From: Bacteroidales bacterium | GTDB taxonomy: Bacteria > Bacteroidota > Bacteroidia > Bacteroidales > Bacteroidaceae | Reading direction: 5' to 3' | NCBI GenBank assembly: GCA_022772475.1 | Contig: JALEZQ010000039.1 | Coordinates: forward strand, 1 to 46,867 | Length of the DNA stretch: 46,867 nucleotides | In this document: positions 4,266 to 44,182 of the stretch, in pieces | How the letters are laid out: each line of letters begins with the position of its first letter | How positions within the stretch are numbered: the stretch's first letter is position 1 | Position numbers and translations under genes: made by a program | Notes under the pieces: generated by a model | Databases searched by the model: none | What the model was told of the DNA's origin: nothing | Seen by the model: the letters and a program-made list of their open reading frames with translations, nothing else

Positions 4266-4303
4266 TCAATAAAAAAGCCACCGCCGCGCCACGCTCACGC
4301 CAC

Positions 4304-4966
4304 TTACCACACGACGGGCTGCTGCCCATGGGCGGTGAGGTAGGCGTTGGCGAGCGAGAAGTGGTGGTTGCCGAAGAAGCCGCGGTAGGCGGAGAGGGGC
4401 GAGGGATGGGGCGAGGCGAGGACGAGATGGCGCTGCCGATCGACCAGGGCGCCCTTGCGCTGGGCATGGCTGCCCCAGAGGATGAACACCAGATGGTCGC
4501 GTCCGTTGGCCAGGCGGCTCACCACGGCGTCGGTAAACTGCTCCCATCCGTGGCCGGCATGTGAGGCGGCGGCATGGGCGCGGACGGTGAGCGTGGCGTT
4601 GAGCAGCAGGACGCCCTGACCGGCCCAGCGGCGCAGGCTGCCACTGGTGGGGATGGGGGCGCCGGTGTCGTCGGCCACCTCCTTGAAGATATTCTGGAGC
4701 GAAGGGGGGAAGGGCACGCCGTCGGCCACGGAGAAGCAGAGACCCTCAGCCTGGCCGGGCTCGTGGTAGGGGTCCTGACCGAGGATGACGACCTTGACGC
4801 GGTCGAAGGGGCAGAGGTTGAAGGCGTTGAAGATGGCGGCGGCAGGGGGATAGCAGGGGCCCTGACGGTACTCCTGGTGGACGAAGCGGGCGAGGTCGGC
4901 AAAGTAGGGGGCGTCAAACTCGCCCTGAAGGACCTGCTGCCACGTGGGGTCTATCTTGACGTTCAT
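4304..4966 (-). CDS. ung: Uracil-DNA glycosylase (family 1)
   Basis: A 220-aa family 1 uracil-DNA glycosylase that removes uracil from DNA at the start of base excision repair. The water-activating motif GQDPYH (about residues 64-69) and the DNA-intercalating motif HPSPLS (about 187-192) are both intact, and length is normal. The open frame extends 32 codons further upstream, but that stretch lies inside the end of hflX and has no Ung similarity; the ATG at 4966 (MNVKID) matches family starts. The start is directly preceded by nine C residues (mRNA sense) and no Shine-Dalgarno, only 13 bp past the hflX stop, so translation may depend on coupling to hflX. Confidence 0.96.
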   Translation of the reverse strand: MNVKIDPTWQQVLQGEFDAPYFADLARFVHQEYRQGPCYPPAAAIFNAFNLCPFDRVKVVILGQDPYHEPGQAEGLCFSVADGVPFPPSLQNIFKEVADDTGAPIPTSGSLRRWAGQGVLLLNATLTVRAHAAASHAGHGWEQFTDAVVSRLANGRDHLVFILWGSHAQRKGALVDRQRHLVLASPHPSPLSAYRGFFGNHHFSLANAYLTAHGQQPVVW

Positions 4967-11077: not shown

Positions 11078-11790
11078 TACTATGCGGCCTCAGACGCAAC
11101 GCCTTGGTTTAAGACTTGGTATCGTGGCGGGCGCCAATAGTAGAGCCATGTCCATTGACGTGGCTCTCAGTGCTTGTTGCGACGTCAGGAGCAACGCCTA
11201 TTAAAACGCCTACAAAAAAAGGTATCGTGGCTGGGCACCACGATGAAGTTCTGAGTACCACGTCAATGGACGTGGCACTACTATGCGGCCTCAGACGCAA
11301 CGCCTTGGTTTAAGACTTGGTATCGTGGCGGGCACCAATAGTAGAGCCATGTCCATTGACATGGCTCTCAGTGCTTGTTGCGACGAAAGGCGCAACGCCT
11401 ATAAAAAAGCGGGATTGTGGCGCCAATAGTAGAGCCATGTCCATTGACGTGGCTCTCAGTACGTGTTGCGACGATAGGCGCAACGCCTATTAAAACGCCT
11501 ACAAAAAAAGGTATCGTGGCCGACGCCACGATGAAGTTCTGAGTACCACGTCAATGGACGTGGCACTACTATGCGGCCTCAGACGCAACGCCTTGGTTTA
11601 AGACTTGGTATCGTGGCGGGCGCCAATAGTAGAGCCATGTCCATTGACATGGCTATCAGTACGTGTTGCGACGTCAGGAGCAACGCCTATTAAAACGCCT
11701 ACAAAATAGGTATCGTGGCTGGGCACCACGATGAAGTTCTGAGTACCACGTCAATGGACGTGGTACTACTATGCGGCGCAGACGCCTATT
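11078..11790. repeat. 200-bp tandem array of paired palindromes
   Basis: Three nearly identical units start at 11078, 11279 and 11567 (201, 288 and 200 bp), with a partial fourth from 11767. Each unit holds a hairpin AGAGCCATGTC-CATT-GAC(G/A)TGGCTCT and, about 115 bp later, its reverse-complement relative CCACGTC-AATG-GACGTGG. Unit 2 has an extra internal copy of the first hairpin about 88 bp on. A smaller stem GTTGCG...CGCAAC lies between them. No coding capacity is visible. A lone related hairpin occurs at 24026-24049. Confidence 0.9.
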
Positions 11791-11856
11791 CGTAAAAATA
11801 GGAAACGCTTGCTTGCCGACGCACGGCTTTGCGGAGAAGCAGCGGAAAAGGGCGAT

Positions 11857-11927
11857 TTGCATTTCGGCACAATTCGTATTAACTTTGCAGAAGCGAATGT
11901 AAAGGGCTCCCTCGGGGGCCCTTTTTT
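11857..11927 (+). ncRNA. Tiny promoter-terminator unit, copy 1
   Basis: A full Bacteroidetes promoter is present: TTG at 11857-11859, 20-nt spacer, TAACTTTGC at 11880-11888. Predicted start is near 11893. Only about 8 nt later begins a strong stem (AAAGGGC...GCCCTTT, 11901-11924, inner part also paired) followed by TTTTTT. The expected product is a transcript of about 35 nt, or an attenuated leader for the repeat array just downstream. The same layout recurs at 23658-23732. Whether an RNA accumulates is inference. Confidence 0.55.
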
Positions 11928-11948
11928 CGTGGCCCAAAGGCGGGTTTA

Positions 11949-12068
11949 CGGTTTGGGCGACCGTAAAAACTGTCGCCCAAACCGTATTTCCTGTCGCCCA
12001 AAGCGTGATTGCCGTCGCCCATAGTGCGTGTTCGGACGCCCCAAAGCCCCCTTCTATCGCCCACAGAC
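11949..12068. repeat. 21-bp phased GTTTGGGCGAC repeat array, locus 1
   Basis: The core GTTTGGGCGAC lies at 11951, and its reverse complement or degraded forms at 11972, 11993, 12014, 12035 and 12056, all exactly 21 bp apart. The first two form a hairpin of 15 bp with a 10-nt loop. Later units decay progressively. Because 21 bp is seven codons, one minus-strand frame reads through as a heptapeptide repeat (such as TVWATVF, TVAQTVN); translation is unproven and the frame has no recognisable domain. Confidence 0.85.
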
Positions 12069-12516
12069 CGTTAATCTTTCCTAAACTTTTCTTCGGCAAA
12101 ACGGGCGACGATAGAAAACGCGTGCGCACAACGTCAAGTGCGCCCTGTCTCTCAGCCAAGGGGAAAGTAGGCCGCGGGCCATGCTCGCGGGCGGCCTTCG
12201 GGCAAACGACCGGCCCGGCTCTTCGAGGCGGGTATGGAACGGGCGGCCATGGCCTGCCGGGGAGCGGCTATGGACACGTGGTGTCATTATTTCTGCAATA
12301 ACAAAAAATATGCCACCAATAAAGAGTAAAAATCTCAAAATTTTGTCGTATATTTGCCTTGTCGCCATCCTTTTTAGTGGCCATCGTTCATACCTTAAAG
12401 TTTAGTAGCATTTCCGGCGTAGTTGAATCCCTGACAACTTTTTGTCAACCAGATATTTGCAAACGCAGTACTGTGAAAACACTGCGGAATTTAGGTTAAT
12501 CTAATACTTTTGAGCC
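12069..12516. other. Intergenic upstream of the lipoprotein pair
   Basis: No gene is seen. A GC-rich stretch (12100-12290) gives way to an AT-rich promoter region. TATATTTGC at 12349-12357 fits a -7 box on the + strand and TACTTTTG at 12505-12512 a second one next to the start codon. A small perfect stem TGACAA-cttt-TTGTCA lies at 12432-12447 between them. Confidence 0.5.
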
Positions 12517-23540: not shown

Positions 23541-23656
23541 CGGCGGCGATTTCTATATAAAGAGGTGGCACAACTTTTGGTGAAAATGCCATCGCCACTT
23601 GCCCGGGCCATTTTCCTTTTTTACGGATTTGGCCACGCTATGCTCGCCGGAGCCGA

Positions 23657-23732
23657 TTTGCTTTTCGCCGCGTTTTGTTGTATATTTGCAGTGCAAATAA
23701 GGATAGGGCCCGCTACGGGGCCCTATTTTTTT
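23657..23732 (+). ncRNA. Tiny promoter-terminator unit, copy 2
   Basis: TTTG at 23657-23660 and TATATTTGC at 23681-23689 form a promoter with the same 20-nt spacing as copy 1. The upstream box context CGATTTGC(A/T)TTTCG is shared by both. A perfect 9-bp stem ATAGGGCCC / GGGCCCTAT (23703-23726, 6-nt loop) follows, then TTTTTTT. The predicted transcript is about 38 nt. The stem sequence differs from copy 1 while the layout is kept. Confidence 0.6.
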
Positions 23733-23750
23733 GTCCTAAAGGGTGTTCCA

Positions 23751-23870
23751 CTGTTTGGGCGACAGATTTTTCTGTCGCCCAAACAGTAAAAACGGTCGCC
23801 CAAACCGTGTCTTCAGATTGGGCGACCGTGAAATCTGTGCGCGAAACGGACAATTTTGCTGCCCAATCCG
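23751..23870. repeat. 21-bp phased GTTTGGGCGAC repeat array, locus 2
   Basis: Cores start at 23753 (forward), 23774 (reverse), 23795 (reverse), 23816 (forward), 23837 (degenerate reverse) and 23858 (reverse), every step 21 bp irrespective of orientation. The first pair makes a perfect 16-bp stem ACTGTTTGGGCGACAG with a 6-nt loop. One + frame reads as heptads such as TVWATDF, SVAQTVK, TVAQTVS and SDWATVK. Confidence 0.85.
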
Positions 23871-24025
23871 TTAAACTTTTATAAAAGTGAATTTGTCGAA
23901 ATGTCGGTTGCGATGAAGGGCCGCCTATGCGGGGCGGCCCTTTGCTTTACCTTGTAACTCGTCCTTAGCGCTTACGAAAAAGGAATACTGCGGTATTTGG
24001 AATTTTTAGTACCATATCCACCCGC

Positions 24026-38020: not shown

Positions 38021-38389
38021 GGTTTCACATACCGTGTGCAATCGCGCCTTTCACATTCGTTAACCTCGAGAATGCCCGCGAAACCCACCACCCTCTCACG
38101 CGGTCGGAAATAACGCCGGCATGGCGCGCTTCAATTTGCCATATTCTGGCAAAGTCTTGAAAGGCCGCCCTGCTACAAGTTAATTCTCTTGAAATTTTTG
38201 TATCATAAGGCCGAAAAGCCCCCTCGCTGACCCGCCGAAGGGCAAGCGTTTTCGGAGATACGGTTTGGGCGACAGGAAATTCTGTCGCCCAAACCGTAAT
38301 TTCTATCGCCCAATCTGTGGAGGCCGGATGCACTTTTCGCCCATCGCCACGCTTTTCCGCTTCTATTTTTAGCGCACAGGCCCTTCACG
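38021..38389. other. Intergenic repeat region after queF
   Basis: No gene is supported. It contains an inverted arm pair CCGAAAA (about 38212) / TTTTCGG (about 38250), and the third 21-bp repeat locus. An open minus frame (38025-38333) results largely from the repeats. Confidence 0.5.
38261..38316. repeat. 21-bp phased GTTTGGGCGAC repeat array, locus 3
   Basis: Cores start at 38263 (forward), 38284 (reverse) and 38305 (reverse), each 21 bp apart. The first pair makes a perfect 16-bp stem ACGGTTTGGGCGACAG with a 6-nt loop. Compared with locus 2, the stem differs by a matched pair of changes (ACGG/CCGT versus ACTG/CAGT), so the palindrome is kept. The clear promoter-terminator unit of loci 1 and 2 is not seen here. 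Confidence 0.85.
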
Positions 38390-39237
38390 TTGTCGGCACA
38401 AAAACTCACGTTATTGGCAGGGTGTGCAATGCTTCATACGGCCCTTTCCGCGATCTACAGCAGCGCCGCTCCAAGTTTGCGGGGTCGACTACGAATGCCG
38501 GATATTATACACTCTATTCCAACTATTCTGGCTCAAAGTGGCTCTATGACAACGGTGGTCAGACAAGCCCCGTTGTGGACCGAAACGGTAGTTATGCTGC
38601 CAACAACTGCGACTGGACCATCGAGGAGGTAACGTGGCTCCCCGTCAAGATTAACGAAACTTACCGCTACAGCACGTTCACCTCGCCGCTCAATCTGACT
38701 CAGGACAATAGCCGCCTGAAGTTTTATACGGGCAAGATGAACAACGGCTATCTGGAACTGACGCAATATACGCAGGCCATCCCCGCCGGCACGCCGTTCA
38801 TGATTGAATATATCGAAGATGGCCAAGTATCGCAAGGCAGCAGTTTCCTGCAAGTGGCCGGCAGCGCCCCCGCCTTCTCCGGCTCCACCGACCTCGTCGG
38901 CACGTTGGAGACCATCGCCAAACCGACGAATCAGGGTACCATCTACACCCTGCAGCCCGCATGGGACGAGAATGCCGCAAACCTCAACTCGGCCAGTGAG
39001 GTAGCCTTCCGCCAGTTCGATGGCTCTAACATCCGCGGCTTCAGCGCCTATCTGCCCGTAGCCGCCGGGACGCAGGTGGCCGGTATGCGCTTCATCACGG
39101 ACGAGGTAACGGTCATCGAGGGCATCAGCGCCGACCAGCAGCACAAGGTGGAAGCCTACGACCTGAGCGGACGCCGCGTACAGCAAGCCAAGAAGGGCCT
39201 CTACATCATCAACGGCAAGAAGGTCATCATTCGCTAA
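38390..39237 (+). pseudogene. Decayed secreted surface-protein gene
   Basis: The frame that ends at 39237 encodes a Bacteroidetes-style exported protein: its last part reads VEAYDLSGRRVQQAKKGLYI then INGKKVIIR, the C-terminal segment typical of Prevotella secreted proteins (an LSGR...KGLYIINGKKV motif). The main body (about 38470-39237) has no recognised catalytic domain. Its 5' end is not normal: the first codons of the open frame look non-coding, while a signal-peptide-like stretch (KLTLLAGCAMLHTALSA, from about 38402) lies in another frame and begins without an ATG. A frameshift near 38450-38480 and loss of the start, or truncation of a longer protein, would explain this. It could still be an intact gene with an unusual start. 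Confidence 0.5.
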
Positions 39238-43999: not shown

Positions 44000-44071
44000 G
44001 TATTGAGGTTTTTGACGGGCATTGCGGCTGCTGTGCCGCAGCGTGCCGTCATGATATTATTTTCTGTGTCT

Positions 44072-44080
44072 GCAAAGTTA
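44072..44080 (-). promoter_or_regulatory. -7 box of purT
   Basis: TAACTTTGC on the minus strand, an exact TAnnTTTGC match 73 nt upstream of the purT ATG. The gap between purT and the phosphoesterase gene holds this promoter and one terminator only. Confidence 0.65.
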
Positions 44081-44182
44081 CAGATACGCCGCCGAAGGGC
44101 CAAACGATTTGGCGGGCGATTTGCCAAGCAATGACGTGAGAGGCGCGGAAGAAAGGGTAAGCGCGTCATCTTCGGCAAAAGG

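Follow-up and report, generated by a model that had tools for sequence, protein, structure and literature searches.

Several families of small interspersed repeats offer parallels to the locus analysed in this study. Correia elements of Neisseria are defined by inverted ends, and the BrickBuilt MITE resides in Porphyromonas gingivalis, a member of the Bacteroidales. The unit size of BOX elements differs from that of the present repeat. In the accessible part of PMC3049150, BOX of Streptococcus pneumoniae and S. suis is described as modular, its internal units varying in number between end modules, and as intergenic, foldable and thought to be mobile; the boxB modules of S. suis can stand between either of two different end pairs, A/C or E/F. 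The same part describes SPRITE of S. pneumoniae as an interspersed repeat with a hairpin resembling a rho-independent terminator. Correia elements, as far as the available text of PMC10969869 goes, are small, interspersed and promoter-carrying, their promoters serving neighbouring genes. BrickBuilt, according to the portion of PMC4596501 at hand, consists of a leader, tandem short units and a tail and is found in 19 intergenic copies; promoter activity and restriction to its species are reported, the units are 23-bp direct repeats without spacer, and the ends are IS5-like terminal inverted repeats.

The locus described here is probably a copy of a modular, non-autonomous and mobile intergenic repeat made of a promoter-terminator cassette, a 21-bp array and a tail. 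Its core would comprise a promoter of the Bacteroidetes primary-sigma type, an intrinsic terminator about 40 nt downstream, an array of 21-bp pitch that opens with a dyad of units 1 and 2, and a tail of the form GTTAA..TAAA; differing end modules enclose this core (class A), and at least one unrelated element (class B) encloses the same array word. With BOX the repeat shares modularity, intergenic position, foldability and presumed mobility, and classes A and B around one array resemble the S. suis end pairs. Unlike in class A, no built-in promoter with an immediate terminator is noted for BOX in that part of PMC3049150, the likeness being one of layout, and for SPRITE, which shares the interspersed terminator-like hairpin, it notes neither promoter nor array. 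Correia elements are likewise small, interspersed and promoter-carrying, but here the predicted terminator would close the transcript at once. BrickBuilt has the same order of leader, units and tail, with its intergenic copies, its reported promoter activity, beside a predicted promoter here, and its species restriction as further likenesses; the present repeat differs in its 21-bp units, one inverted first unit, direct end repeats and promoter-terminator cassette, and no terminal inverted repeats were found in the window copies. By analogy, it would work most like BOX or BrickBuilt, with a closed promoter-terminator cassette added. This layout is described in no title or abstract opening within the open-access literature searched, and the repeat adds an abundant family, undescribed in that literature, to an uncultured Bacteroidales genus.

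The window, the whole stretch of 46,867 nt that was analysed, is contig 88 of a 2.38-Mb assembly of 104 contigs (genome G000). Two class A copies and one class B element were located in it as follows.

11797..11855, + strand, copy 1 left end module, type A2, beginning AATAGGAAACGC
11856..11890, + strand, copy 1 promoter by pattern match: TTTG, 20 nt, TAACTTTG (11880-11887), CAG
11893..11927, + strand, copy 1 predicted RNA of about 35 nt, with terminator stem 11901-11910/11915-11924 and T-run 11922-11927
11947..12065, + strand, copy 1 array: forward word at 11952, reverse words at 11972, 11993, 12014, 12035 and 12056
12070..12085, + strand, copy 1 conserved tail GTTAATCTTTCCTAAA
12110..12140, + strand, copy 1 right end module, A2: GATAGAAAACGCGTGCGCACAACGTCAAGTG, the left end motif again in the same direction
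23609..23656, + strand, copy 2 left end module, type A1 (CATTTTCCTTTTTTACGG...GGAGCCGA), flanks read by eye
23657..23691, + strand, copy 2 promoter by pattern match: TTTG at 23657-23660, 20 nt, TATATTTG at 23681-23688, CAG
23694..23732, + strand, copy 2 predicted RNA of about 39 nt, start placed from the promoter position
23703-23711/23718-23726 (stem) and 23726-23732 (T-run), + strand, copy 2 terminator by folding and arm pairing
23750..23787, + strand, copy 2 first array dyad, a perfect 17-bp inverted pair with a 4-nt loop, by repeat search and folding
23788..23869, + strand, copy 2 further units, decaying: reverse word 23795-23804, forward word 23817-23826 (1 mismatch)
23870..23885, + strand, copy 2 conserved tail GTTAAACTTTTATAAA
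23886..23919, + strand, copy 2 right end module (A1), limit set by the profile match 23619-23919
38034..38430, + strand, class B element: array word 38264-38293, GTGTGCAAT at both ends in the same direction, without the class A cassette

The promoter, the hairpin with its T-run and the array were found at both class A loci in the order that an earlier note on this DNA had proposed from the letters. The array word is TTTGGGCGAC and, allowing one mismatch, occurs in copy 1 at 11952 (+), 11972, 11993 and 12014 (all -) and in copy 2 at 23754 (+), 23774 and 23795 (both -) and 23817 (+). Consecutive reverse words are exactly 21 apart at the window loci by both word scan and repeat search; the pitch of copy 1 is exactly 21, with one mismatch in the word at 12014 and two each at 12035 and 12056. 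The A1 left module of copy 2 is common to nine copies in this genome, as read by eye from printed flanks, and two more end at contig ends. Tandem palindrome repeats (ACCACGTCAATGGACGTGG) lie directly before copy 1 (11500-11790), and stretches like CACGTCAATGGACATGGCAC stand upstream of several other copies. At the end of copy 2 a strong terminator-like hairpin is found in the same direction (23914-23944).

The palindromic word pair occurs 40 times in the genome, whereas its reversed control has 0 matches; the single word occurs 83+81 times and its control 3+4 times, an excess well above what chance would give. Profile searches, for which the class A profile was built from 31 sequences of the family, yielded at least 35 copies of class A at 130 bits or more and at least 27 of class B at 140 bits or more; these are lower bounds, because only the stretches around matches were searched and some were cut by contig ends. 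In the sister species G070 the number of class A copies is similar. The cassette belongs to class A, and class B has other flanks, the array being the only common feature. At least three left-end types, distinguished by eye, precede one class A core; together with the two classes around one word and the mixed units of G049, this gives a modularity of the BOX kind. Type A2 copies of G070 begin with GATAGAAAACTC and end with GATAGAAAACTCGTG..AACGTGAAGTG, which is a direct repeat. One class B copy of that species (L344) has a mixed array in which the species' own word comes first. A 93-base repeat of the GTGTGTCAAAATGCAAATTTTGACGCGCACTC type was also listed at 25 places in G000, with 92-100% identity. 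In many contigs of G000 and G070 a class A copy lies no more than a few hundred bases from one of the contig ends, and thus the repeats probably break assemblies and the copy numbers are underestimates.

Among the 58 genomes of the genus, only this one (40 times) and G070 (10 times) carry the TTTGGGCGAC pair. A model, R1, was built from 38 sequences; because RNAalifold gave no consensus base pair in the 38-sequence alignment, R1 is a sequence-only model. At E up to 0.1 it matched all 58 genomes, mostly weakly and few times, with at least 79 places each in G018 and G006, 58 in G070, 45 in this genome and 31 in G068. At E up to 0.001 the numbers were 73 in G006, 21 in G049, 19 in G003, 18 in G056, 15 in G001, 9 in G014, 7 in G050 and 5 in G060. 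By eye, the same order of parts was recognized in 11 genomes (this one, G070, G018, G068, G003, G001, G050, G006, G049 and, thinly, G014 and G056), with a common plan of Bacteroidetes-type promoter, hairpin and T-run closing a predicted RNA of about 39 nt, array and GTTAA...TAAA tail. The three readable R1 matches of G060 are gene promoters without hairpin or array, and a locus from one further genome (L129) also shows the module. According to the earlier note, its idea of a conserved unit would fall if the promoter-hairpin part were conserved nowhere else; that part is conserved in other species of the genus, and the idea survives. When the search was extended to 197 genomes of the order beyond this genus, 11 had one to four weak matches (E up to 0.001, at most 27.7 bits). 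A wider contig pattern scan gave 19 stretches, of which 9 belong to the sister MAG and 10 to other phyla or groups; in a search of these 10 with the two profiles, one had weak array matches among the matches listed. Three of the 10 (L100, L102 and L108), all of one Anaerolineae MAG (MO53), hold the palindromic word pair.

Eight copies occupy the same place in both sister species, and a further two (L103 and L272) are split by an insert in G070. The flanks of 12 G070 copies were sought in this genome and 11 had a counterpart locus that was compared; both flanks aligned for three, and two more were read from one flank. At all five of these inspected sites, six further one-flank cases lying outside them, class A is absent here, and one of the three two-flank sites holds a class B element. 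In four G070 loci (L244, L248, L251 and L264) a flank aligns with class A loci of this genome that have a different word or a divergent array; these may be replaced arrays or separate insertions. Counting against the mobile-repeat reading, terminal inverted repeats of the MITE kind were absent from the three window copies by repeat search, other end types being judged by eye. A target-site duplication was not found at the two two-sided empty sites, where 139 and 196 bp differ around the site and the exact insertion junction is therefore not readable. In the proposed mechanism the promoter would fire and transcription would stop at once, so that a new copy would bring along a transcription start yet neither drive nor silence adjacent genes, and the array would grow or shrink by duplication of 21-bp units and be copied along with the element. 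Gene-adjacent promoter and terminator pairs in these genomes may represent a mobile repeat and not gene regulation.

Compared between the two species, the eight shared copies differ at 4 of 512 sites in array units 1-3 against 165 of 4224 in the pooled flanks (p 4e-5; p 0.006 against the downstream flank), and no segment other than the array clearly diverges more slowly than both flanks. The 5' RNA part with the terminator differs at 4 of 310 sites (p 0.018 against the pooled flank, 0.18 against the downstream flank alone). The promoter, with 8 of 296 sites (p 0.35), is not clearly below the flanks and thus gives no sign of selection. For the array tail the count is 22 of 518, 12 of the 22 coming from L046/L118, a pair in which the G070 contig continues as other sequence. 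Badly aligned segments were left out of the pooling, namely the upstream flanks of L050/L105 and L041/L096 and the downstream segments of L046/L118. The homogeneity of the array could partly reflect gene conversion.

The array words of the other species are TCCGATGTTGT in G018, CCCCGTATTCG in G006, GTGCCGAATA or TTACTAA in G003, GCGCATCC and TTTGCCTTCCTCTA units in G049, and CTTGGGCGAC or GTCCCTGGGAC in G070. In self-matches over the 150 bases after the terminator, 21 came out highest among the 40 lags for 9 of the 10 species groups (G001 and G050 forming one group; groups may include gene-promoter rows without an array, as in G060) and ranked third in G056, which has 4 rows. The pitch is less certain for G003, G006 and G014, since their upstream controls (3-5 sequences each) also peak weakly at 21 (0.31-0.32) and G014 contributes just 3 rows. 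In the first dyad, complementarity between units 1 and 2 over their outer seven bases is 0.937 in this genome, against 0.820 when swapped between copies (maximum 0.866, n=34), and 0.975 against 0.783 in G070 (maximum 0.853, n=34). Units 2 and 3 are identical to only 0.835 here and 0.805 in G070, and as the complementarity of units 1 and 2 exceeds this identity, duplication of units does not suffice to explain how well the dyad is kept. The family separates conserved spacing from changing sequence, two properties that bacterial repeats usually confound. One tentative reading, possible though hardly favoured, is that selection keeps the format and not the sequence, with a pitch of two helical turns and one dyad held genus-wide while the word is replaced across each genome and serves two unrelated element classes, as in a species-specific address system. 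Were this true, there would be a trans-acting reader, protein or RNA, with a fast-changing target word, and the closed cassette would be the switch or loading site of that reader instead of part of a passive repeat.

It is unlikely that the copies are chromosome-architecture sites, at which a nucleoid- or partition-type protein would sit on the phased array while the cassette keeps the site open or supercoiled. The pitch of two helical turns is kept while words change, array units are the slowest to diverge, one word serves both class A and class B, and in the two best-sampled species 30 of 32 and 42 of 43 close pairs show A/T tracts with a phase of 20-22.5 bp, all of which would suit such sites. 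Against them, the remaining eight groups do not exceed the shuffled range in A/T phasing, positions turn over between the sister species, and different words within one genome (G049, G003) are hard to fit to one sequence-specific binder.

The pattern TTTG-N20-TAnnTTTGCAG matches without mismatch at 11856-11890 (+) and 23657-23691 (+); a third exact match, at 44070-44104 (-), precedes a gene and has no array. With up to two mismatches there are four matches in the window against 0.76 expected, a number reached in none of 100 shuffles. TTTG at -33 and TAnnTTTG at -7 identify a predicted promoter of the Bacteroidetes primary-sigma type, for which the consensus is quoted in the accessible part of PMC7366714. 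The -7 box and start region of copy 2 (23684-23700) form a short palindrome, TTTGCA-N-TGCAAA, also seen in other copies; in G018 it reads TTTGTA-N-TACAAA, both arms changing together between species.

Hairpins followed by six or seven T's were found at 11901-11927 and 23703-23732, and as RNA they fold with -18.3 and -21.4 kcal/mol (z -2.9 and -5.0). A GC-rich hairpin with a T-run and conserved pairing is what an intrinsic terminator has, and yet a general terminator scan of the window listed the terminator of neither copy on the + strand, probably since, under its definition of a stem, the first T's are taken up in pairs with the leading A's. Pairing was examined by taking the seven bases before the T-run and seeking their best complement in the upstream part. 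Own arms scored 0.881 against 0.796 for swapped arms in this genome (swapped maximum 0.829, n=33), 0.859 against 0.805 in G070 (n=39) and 0.877 against 0.836 in G018 (n=11), and in each of the three 0 of 500 shuffles reached the own-arm value; G068 (n=7) was uninformative. An earlier windowing, in which the search window cut into the 5' arm, gave 0.599 against 0.589 here and 0.608 against 0.596 in G070, and another calculation was biased because the arms had been picked by pairing, which leaves the 7-base version as the fair one. The covariation of the stem that the earlier note had proposed to look for is thus present here and in the sister species (own arms better in 500 of 500 shuffles), and the terminator hairpin co-varies as the array dyad does. 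The conserved unit proposed by that note is supported, with the promoter conserved and the stem varying in sequence while its place and pairing are kept.

With the start sites of the earlier note, the predicted RNAs of copies 1 and 2 are 35 and 39 nt long. The predicted length is nearly fixed within a species, being, under a separate counting rule, 39-43 nt in 34 of 36 rows of this genome (the other two are misassigned hairpins), 38-40 nt in G018 and 49-51 nt in G068. If such transcripts exist, each genome would hold dozens of near-minimal transcription units. A multi-copy family of tiny RNAs of 35-51 nt, a short 5' tail and the terminator hairpin acting in trans with array and ends as chromosomal baggage, seems improbable as an explanation. 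The fixed length, the maintained terminator pairing and the few differences in the 5' part and terminator relative to the pooled flank, although not to the downstream flank, are consistent with it, and transcripts as short as 20 nt are reported for B. thetaiotaomicron in the accessible part of PMC7366714. The stem sequence, on the other hand, is free to vary, and there is little room for a seed. Rfam gave no match at the gathering score and seven sub-threshold ones at E up to 1, and a known RNA family was rejected.

A mobile modular repeat with a closed transcription cassette fits the features examined. Among 47 copies of the two species with a called gene on both sides, 15 lie between convergent genes, 11 between divergent genes, and 14 and 7 in the two tandem arrangements; genes were called by a home-made hexamer caller and a few of the 47 are the same copy counted in both species. 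This mixed orientation and the absence at all five inspected sister sites argue for a mobile repeat and not for an attenuator of a neighbour. The earlier note had also considered an attenuator whose read-through would cover the array, and while its conserved promoter-terminator unit stands, attenuation of a downstream gene was rejected. Promoter, terminator and downstream hairpin do follow in the classical order, but a downstream gene is on the same strand in only 18 of the 47 copies, window copy 2 faces a convergent gene, and copies are gained or lost between the sister species, which makes attenuation very unlikely. A fixed role behind dnaA was rejected as well, the module lying there at only one of the 30 dnaA loci of the genus examined, that of the window itself; some of these loci were cut by contig ends, and the 3' end of the sister's dnaA, located on a different contig, falls outside this count.

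An origin as REP/BIME-like palindromes, with a RAYT (Y1) transposase spreading them, would account for many intergenic copies with species-specific palindromic words, and roughly 1 kb separates one Y1 gene (G000:C45:1624-1965) from a class A copy, but this origin is highly improbable, as the exact array word stands on one side only of that gene, the module-rich G070 and G006 show no Y1, and Y1 occurs in 5 of 11 grouped array carriers against 23 of 47 other genomes (several genomes incomplete, the array status of the 47 not classified one by one), an absence of association on which RAYT mobilisation was rejected. A CRISPR array was rejected because the whole 21-bp unit recurs at 67-81% with its spacer included, the spacers repeating along with the words. 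Other inserted sequences were observed at copies of G070. Inserts with GGTGTGTCA...TGACACACC ends interrupt two of them (L103:3100-3257 and L272) and a third adjoins a copy in L101 (about 4284-4472), as though these inserts favoured the module as a target. Five further G070 copies (L118, L246, L253, L257 and L258) break at the tail, near a contig end, into a common sequence starting GTAACTACTCAGCTAT, which is probably another mobile element sitting in the GTTAA tail.
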